A DNA stretch of 62,144 nucleotides from NCBI GenBank assembly GCA_003104905.1, contig PQAS01000009.1, positions 1 through 62,144 of the forward strand. Direction: 5' to 3'. Each line of letters starts with the position of its first letter. Position 1 is the first letter of the stretch. Below, piece after piece: positions 41,691-42,908 of this stretch. The position numbers and the translations under genes were made by a program. The notes beneath the pieces are model-generated. The model saw only the letters and a program-made list of their open reading frames with translations. It did no database searches and had not been told where the DNA came from. This DNA is from Candidatus Methanoperedentaceae archaeon (GTDB lineage Archaea > Halobacteriota > Methanosarcinia > Methanosarcinales > Methanoperedenaceae).

Positions 41691-42908
41691 TTAATGTTCT
41701 TTTTTTCTCAAAACCACTGATATCACAAGGCCAAGAAGGATCGGGATCATGGATACAAGGAATATATCCGTAATCGACGCCCACCTGGTGCCTGGAGCAA
41801 CAGCGTCTGGATTCAATACTCTCACATCTTTCTGTGTTTCGACAACAGAACCCGATGGTATGACGGTCCCATCCGGGACTTTAACGCCAACAACTATGGC
41901 ATCGTCACCGATTTGCACATTATTTCCGATCGTGGACTTAAAGACCACGGCCCTGCTCCCTATGTTTGCCTTCTCGCCAAGAACGAGCGGCCCATGCAAT
42001 ACTGAATCACTTCCCAGCTTGAGATCATTACCAATACTGATCTCTTGATCATTCAGGGAATGGAATGTATTGTTCATAGCTATTTGCGCATTTCTTCCTA
42101 TTTTTATCGGGATTCCCTCATCCGCCCTTATTGACGTTCCATTCTCTACTATGCTATTCTCACCCAGGAAAACATCCCCTATTATTCGGGTTGATCCAAT
42201 TGCAGAAGATGCTCCAATAACAGGATTATTACTTCCGTTTCGTGAGAGAATATCCTTACCTTCTATTAATATATCCCCATCTCCGTTAGGACCGATACTG
42301 CCAAAATCGGATGCCCCATTTTTTTCAAACAACCGGGTGTATCCTATTGCAAGGGCTCTATTGACACCTATGACCTCTTCTACGAACTCTTTCTGCTCTT
42401 CTGTAACCGATCCAAACTTTTCAATGTCATCTATGCTATCGATCACTGATGCCTGCGGCACTGATTTGCCAGGGGGTATGTCAACGCCAGTGATCTTGCT
42501 TCCAATTCCTATATAGGCACCATCACCGATTTTTGCATCCTTGATAATTGAATTAAATCCGATGAATGCGAAACTTCCGATCTCCACATCTCCTTCAAGA
42601 TGGGCTCCATGGGCGACCACAGCATCATCTTTTATTGTTATCTTTCCGGAATTACTGACGCCATCCTGGAGATCGCTGTTACTTCCAATATGGGTATATT
42701 CTCCTGTGAAGGAAGTGAATGGTCCAACATAACTTTCAGAACCAATAGAGAAATCATTCACATTTATGTCAACCGAAGGATCAACGAAACTATTGCCCTG
42801 ATACAAAATTGTATTGTTGGATGCCCCCACAATTAAAATATTTGTGATAAGTGCAAATGTTATCATCGATCCTATCATTAATTTATTCTTAATTCCACCA
42901 TTCTTCAT
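41691..42908 (-). CDS. Exported tandem gamma-carbonic anhydrase-like protein
   Basis: 405 residues: signal or anchor helix (about 10-29), two left-handed beta-helix (hexapeptide) domains each resembling Cam of Methanosarcina thermophila (about 31-200 and 225-365), and a C-terminal helix with RKKEH (about 380-405). Relative to Cam zinc ligands His81/His117/His122, domain 1 has only the His117 equivalent (H100 in VVAHGAH; His122 position is Glu). Domain 2 has His81 and His122 equivalents (H283 in NNTFHSL; H305 in VLHGP), with Ser at the His117 position. Domain 2 also keeps the Cam IRxDEG motif. One complete site could form between the domains. Extracytoplasmic bicarbonate/CO2 conversion is inferred. 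Confidence 0.82.
   Translation of the reverse strand: MKNGGIKNKLMIGSMITFALITNILIVGASNNTILYQGNSFVDPSVDINVNDFSIGSESYVGPFTSFTGEYTHIGSNSDLQDGVSNSGKITIKDDAVVAHGAHLEGDVEIGSFAFIGFNSIIKDAKIGDGAYIGIGSKITGVDIPPGKSVPQASVIDSIDDIEKFGSVTEEQKEFVEEVIGVNRALAIGYTRLFEKNGASDFGSIGPNGDGDILIEGKDILSRNGSNNPVIGASSAIGSTRIIGDVFLGENSIVENGTSIRADEGIPIKIGRNAQIAMNNTFHSLNDQEISIGNDLKLGSDSVLHGPLVLGEKANIGSRAVVFKSTIGNNVQIGDDAIVVGVKVPDGTVIPSGSVVETQKDVRVLNPDAVAPGTRWASITDIFLVSMIPILLGLVISVVLRKKEH

Follow-up and report, generated by a model that had tools for sequence, protein, structure and literature searches.

The window, i.e., the whole stretch of 62,144 nucleotides that was analyzed, encodes a tandem γ-carbonic-anhydrase-like protein that we take, with a probability of roughly two in three (0.68), to be a single-chain, extracytoplasmic, membrane-anchored γ-carbonic anhydrase (γ-CA) derivative with one composite site formed between its two domains, termed D1 and D2. 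γ-CAs are textbook obligate trimers, and their active site exists between subunits only. If the two domains have decayed into exact complements, the protein would show a route from a homomeric enzyme to a one-site pseudo-heteromer, and it constitutes a small natural test of the trimer requirement for catalysis. The features of the gene and its product are compiled in Table 1.

Table 1. Coordinates of the tandem gene and of features of the encoded protein in the window; faces A and B are explained in the text.
Feature	Position	Strand	Basis
Tandem γ-carbonic-anhydrase-like protein, 405 aa	41691..42908	(-)	ORF and translation; Hexapep, CcmM, Cam and GlmU-type left-handed beta-helix profiles
N-terminal hydrophobic segment, residues 9-30, signal peptide or anchor	42819..42884	(-)	Hydropathy; model helix 5-29
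Domain 1 (D1) beta-helix, residues 36-165, Cam-like on face B only	42414..42803	(-)	Alignment and face scores
Q81-D82, corresponding to Cam Gln75-Asp76	42663..42668	(-)	Invariant among D1 sequences, absent from D2
H100, equivalent of zinc ligand His117 (D1)	42609..42611	(-)	Alignment, orthologue conservation
D1 C-terminal helix, residues 168-197, conserved V179, N183, Y190	42318..42407	(-)	Alignment; helix 170-197 in both models
Inter-domain linker, residues 198-221	42246..42317	(-)	Alignment
Domain 2 (D2) beta-helix, residues 222-368, Cam-like on face A only, without C-terminal helix	41805..42245	(-)	Alignment and face scores
R261, D263, E264, corresponding to Cam Arg59, Asp61, Glu62	42117..42128	(-)	Invariant among D2 sequences, absent from D1
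H283, equivalent of zinc ligand His81 (D2)	42060..42062	(-)	Alignment, orthologue conservation
S300 at the His117 position (D2)	42009..42011	(-)	Invariant in 7/7 D2 sequences
H305, equivalent of zinc ligand His122 (D2)	41994..41996	(-)	Alignment, orthologue conservation
C-terminal membrane helix, residues 376-403, then basic tail	41700..41783	(-)	Hydropathy; model helix 379-404

With regard to family membership, the protein matches Pfam Hexapep (2.5e-21) as well as the Cam, CcmM and PaaY profiles, which marks it as a left-handed beta-helix of hexapeptide repeats. CcmM and Cam are the closest PDB structures by sequence, and Cam/CcmM also ranked top by fold in a Foldseek search for which a low-confidence predicted model served as the query. 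The scores against NF040597, the NCBIfam carbonic anhydrase equivalog (122 bits vs. a cut-off of 380), and against the NCBIfam profile for CcmM, which matched the chain in two stretches (147 bits vs. a cut-off of 550), both lie far below the cut-offs. The two hydrophobic segments at the ends of the chain, with hydropathy peaks of 2.11 (residues 9-30) and 2.89 (residues 376-403), are found in six out of six full-length sequences and support a protein that is exported and membrane-anchored, as had been predicted from the window's sequence. Because lysines precede the first segment and a basic tail follows the second, both Cam-type domains should lie outside the cell. The linker between the domains carries a GPNGDGDIL-like motif, GPNGDGDILIEGKDIL, that is well conserved in most orthologues.

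Of the ligands of the Cam zinc site, His81 and His122 stem from one monomer and His117 from its neighbor (PMC4519908), which bears out the arrangement assumed in the sequence-only reading. Ligand columns were read from an alignment to 44 Cam-type domains. The tandem protein contains six histidines altogether, H73, H100, H103, H283, H305 and H405. In D1, H100 falls on the His117 column, which is universally conserved in Cam-type domains, while E105 occupies the His122 column and the His81 column holds a gap or a serine. In D2, H283 and H305 take the His81 and His122 columns, respectively, and S300 is located at the His117 position. The ligand set of D1 consequently consists of the His117 equivalent only and that of D2 of the His81 and His122 equivalents only, such that neither domain is complete, and the alignment confirms the split between the domains that had been read from the sequence. 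The glutamate at the His122 position of D1 is present in the window's protein as noted earlier but is not conserved: among six full-length sequences, residue 105 is Glu in three, Val in two and Ile in one. E105 as a substitute ligand was rejected on account of the Val or Ile in half of the sequences. Because neither domain holds the ligand set by itself and the scores fall below the equivalog cut-offs, the protein is best called a γ-CA derivative, the site residues of which are γ-CA-like.

The complementarity of the ligands, correctly recognized before, extends to residues that had been overlooked, namely Gln75/Asp76 in D1 and Arg59/Asp61/Glu62 in D2. Among the Cam residues with a presence of at least 98%, Arg59, Asp61, Glu62, His81, His122 and the Leu two positions after His81 are kept in D2 only, and Gln75, Asp76, His117 and the Phe of the FIGF motif in D1 only, while several fold glycines of Cam are common to both domains. 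D1 retains the C-terminal helix together with the Val, Asn and Tyr that are near-universal there, and D2 has lost it; N183 of D1 aligns with the near-universal Asn of this helix, which we take to be Cam Asn202. In five of the six sequences, D1 has Asp in place of Asn73, and the tandem protein lacks the acidic loop of Cam that carries the proton shuttle. S300 and D301 occur without exception in the seven D2 sequences.

The full-length tandem protein is encoded in six of 31 Methanoperedens genomes, the window's own included, and the five orthologues share 89, 78, 78, 77 and 55% identity with the window's protein. Another genus of the family contributes a D2-only fragment situated at a contig end, and all orthologue comparisons rest on these six full-length sequences and one fragment. 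Among 393 sampled genomes of the phylum, no full-length tandem case was found besides that in the window's own genome, the remaining matches being single-domain Cam-type proteins or the double-Cam chain from genome G042, and no relative of the tandem protein was found among viral contigs (IMG/VR). H100, H283 and H305 are kept in six out of six full-length sequences, and H283 and H305 also in the D2-only fragment. Random loss of ligands, named beforehand as the observation that would speak against a shared site, was not seen in the alignment of homologues. For orthologue pairs with measurable (unsaturated) dS, dN/dS amounts to about 0.1 in D1 as well as in D2, which points to purifying selection on both domains. 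In the phylogenetic tree, D1 and D2 sequences each form one clade, each on a long branch within the Cam-type group and apart from CamH-type proteins.

The strands of left-handed beta-helices repeat in three faces. These were assigned from hexapeptide register and strand pattern rather than from coordinates: since Gln75 precedes His81 by six and His117 precedes His122 by five residues, Gln75 and His117 share one face (face B) and His81 and His122 the next (face A). This assignment agrees with the strands seen in the predicted models, which are of low confidence. Scored against the Cam profile, D1 reaches 0.47 on face A and 2.33 on face B, D2 reaches 2.79 and 0.14, respectively, and scores for the third face are nearer neutral. 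All five A strands favor D2 and all four B strands favor D1, which is the most extreme of 126 block assignments, and the difference between faces A and B, compared with 33 non-redundant Cam references, is 7.8-11 SD low for D1 and 11-13 SD high for D2; as sites within a face evolve non-independently, these statistics describe the pattern and are not probabilities of function. The asymmetry is present in every orthologue and absent from the 33 reference domains, which stem from other proteins, and CamH-type proteins exhibit A-B differences near zero. All three histidine ligands are thus present once per chain on what are, at the sequence level, complementary faces, and as far as the pattern goes only the pairing D2(A):D1(B) offers all of them. 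The split covers entire faces of the beta-helix, beyond the three ligands. Given that the ligands are kept in all orthologues, that dN/dS is about 0.1 and that the split spans whole faces, the complementary pattern is, judged from these comparisons, more than chance.

A corresponding division was apparent for the outward positions. On the retained faces, 13/16 are invariant on face B of D1 and 16/20 on face A of D2 (together 29/36); on the degenerate faces, this applies to 6/17 on face A of D1 and 5/16 on face B of D2 (together 11/33). Charged residues make up 11-19% of the retained faces, compared with 7-16% for Cam interfaces, and about 30% of the degenerate faces, approaching the third face of Cam (42%), although the outer face of D1 is only moderately hydrophilic (KD -0.88). 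The degenerate faces are variable and hydrophilic and look solvent-exposed. With the retained faces conserved and low in charge and the other two variable and charged, the pattern is as expected if one D1:D2 interface is maintained. The character of the outer faces speaks against each domain forming a homotrimer of its own and makes a third protomer less likely.

We propose that the His117 face of D1 would pack in a Cam-like manner on the His81/His122 face of D2, where H283 and H305 from D2 and H100 from D1 would hold one zinc (or iron/cobalt) ion and Q81, E264 and probably N183 would complete the composite site. The other interface half of each domain would have decayed and become exposed to solvent, leaving one catalytic site per D1:D2 pair, and the two members of this pair may belong to a single chain or to two. 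The protein would probably interconvert CO2 and HCO3-, or act in sensing/binding, on the membrane's outer face. The proposal of one composite D1-D2 site made in the sequence-only reading gains support from the complementary losses, which are shared by all orthologues and fall on the proper halves of the interface. On the other hand, it counts against the composite site that, once each domain has kept one half, complementarity by itself is to be expected a priori in about half of the cases. We infer that selection maintains a single Cam-like interface between D1 and D2, at which each domain pair would have one zinc site, possibly without a third protomer. AlphaFold modeling of the full chain with seven orthologues resulted in a mean pLDDT of 48 and a pTM of 0.36, and with 39 rows, for which MAFFT had aligned every Cam row to D2 only, in values of 52.5 and 0.45; beta-helix topology is visible in both models, the confidence being too low for domain packing. 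Cam itself has been reported to be active as a trimer only (PMC5746736). A complete escape from the trimer, in which a single chain would make do with one metal site at one Cam-like interface, its other two faces having become ordinary surface, and would work as a pseudo-dimeric enzyme or sensor outside the cell, is a tentative extension of the composite-site proposal, to which we assign somewhat less than even odds.

The analysis does not support, in the form stated, the trimer originally envisaged with one complete site and one degenerate interface: a Cam trimer has three interfaces, such that a two-domain chain needs a third protomer, and the two degenerate faces, being charged and variable, resemble solvent-exposed surface more than interfaces. 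A mixed trimer would consist of D1 and D2 packed as proposed plus a third protomer and would feature one zinc site and two degenerate interfaces; the third protomer would be a D1 or D2 domain contributed by another chain or else a separate γ-CA. Known γ-CAs are trimers, the plant CA1/CA2/CAL2 module is exactly such an assembly (PMC7447434), a heterotrimer is also known for CcmM/CcmN (PMC13249358), and the merely moderate hydrophilicity of the outer face of D1 would be compatible with a partner. We nevertheless regard a mixed trimer as rather unlikely, as the outer faces carry more charge than the retained ones and show much lower conservation, an exported intact Cam that could serve as partner has no match in five of the six species having the tandem protein, and D1s and D2s supplied by two-domain chains leave an odd domain.

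For two trimeric domains fused to each other, the simplest symmetry would be that of two stacked homotrimers, (D1)3 and (D2)3, with a structural role for D1 and an altered metal site in D2 made up of H283, H305 and Asp301/Ser300 of the neighbor, and the invariance of the latter two residues in all D2 sequences is in line with this. Such stacking appears improbable, because neither homotypic interface looks maintained, face B of D2 and face A of D1 being charged and variable, and because it leaves the invariant H100, Q81 and D82 and the Cam-like face B of D1 unexplained. A catalytically dead relic or a structural or binding protein, the histidines of which are conserved for folding or ligand binding and not for zinc, would agree with the missing Asn73 and proton-shuttle loop, with the intact exported Cam of the same genome and with the plant complex I γ-CAs, for which activity has not been demonstrated (PMC7447434). 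What makes this unlikely is that precisely the three ligands together with Gln75, Glu62 and Arg59 are kept, one copy each, across the whole orthologue set at a dN/dS of about 0.1.

Genes for an aminotransferase, a prenyl synthase and a radical SAM protein are located on one side of the tandem gene and those for a 122-aa protein and a methyltransferase on the other. This neighborhood is common to the close orthologues examined and says nothing about function. The 55%-identical orthologue (L014/L070:12010-13236, G017 C30) begins 18 bp after fpoO, directly behind the fpoN-fpoO genes in which a complete, complex I-like fpo operon ends. In the other genomes examined no γ-CA was found after fpoO within the flank (up to 1.5 kb), and the position next to complex I-like genes is regarded as a single case, that of G017. 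The window's own genome also encodes an intact non-exported γ-CA (L007) and an intact exported Cam (L068:3569-4453, G000 C2:65568-66452) that has an acidic loop and is anchored at its C terminus; the gene for the latter sits between chemoreceptor and CheW-like genes. Exported intact Cams occur in seven Methanoperedens species and the tandem protein in six, with one species in common vs. 1.35 expected by chance. This co-occurrence indicates neither association nor exclusion, and a conserved partner Cam was discarded. Bicarbonate handling near methane oxidation, as suggested earlier, fits the host, Candidatus Methanoperedens, and the predicted location of the protein, but no gene neighbor supports it. 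The tandem protein would be a candidate surface CO2/bicarbonate enzyme in anaerobic methanotrophs.

Like Cam of Methanosarcina thermophila (1QRG, 1THJ) and its single-domain relatives, the tandem protein is a left-handed beta-helix, and it has every ligand and most second-shell residues once as well as, in D1, the helix with the conserved Asn. It differs from Cam in that it consists of two unequal fused domains with presumably one functional interface half each, in its predicted membrane anchor and in the lack of the proton-shuttle loop. Within the same order, a sister family contains exported tandem Cam domains with similar junctions of helix, linker and next domain (L016 and L027), all of which, in contrast to D1 and D2, retain all ligands. 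One of these chains (L027:319-2505, G050 C151) is an exported protein of 729 aa in which three Cam domains, all complete and intact, are combined with an RR-type leader and a PGF-like C-terminal anchor, and possibly represents a natural single-chain γ-CA trimer; the other (L016:3-1313, G042 C192), cut by the contig end, features at least two intact Cam domains and a lipoprotein-like leader. As double- and triple-Cam chains exist in the same order, fusion of neighboring protomers is an available route. With CcmM/CcmN of beta-carboxysomes, a hetero-oligomer of one CcmM and two CcmN (PMC13249358), the tandem protein shares γ-CA-like beta-helices, while CcmM and CcmN are separate chains with a scaffold role in carboxysomes. 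We found no report of tandem γ-CAs with split ligands in the openly accessible literature. The closest parallel is the γ-CA module of plant complex I (CA1/CA2/CAL2), of which, in Vigna radiata, a single zinc site survives between CA1 and CA2 after losses in CA1 and CAL2 (PMC7447434). In both cases losses are spread such that exactly one interface can hold zinc, in the tandem protein at the level of the pattern, and the latter would thus provide an archaeal single-gene counterpart to the unexplained one-zinc module of plants. The plant module is built from three separate CamH-type proteins on the matrix side of complex I, whereas the tandem protein comprises fused Cam-type domains, is predicted to be exported, has whole faces split and possibly does without a third subunit. 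The one-zinc-site logic of plants, realized in one chain with Cam-type domains and on the other side of the membrane, is a new variation.
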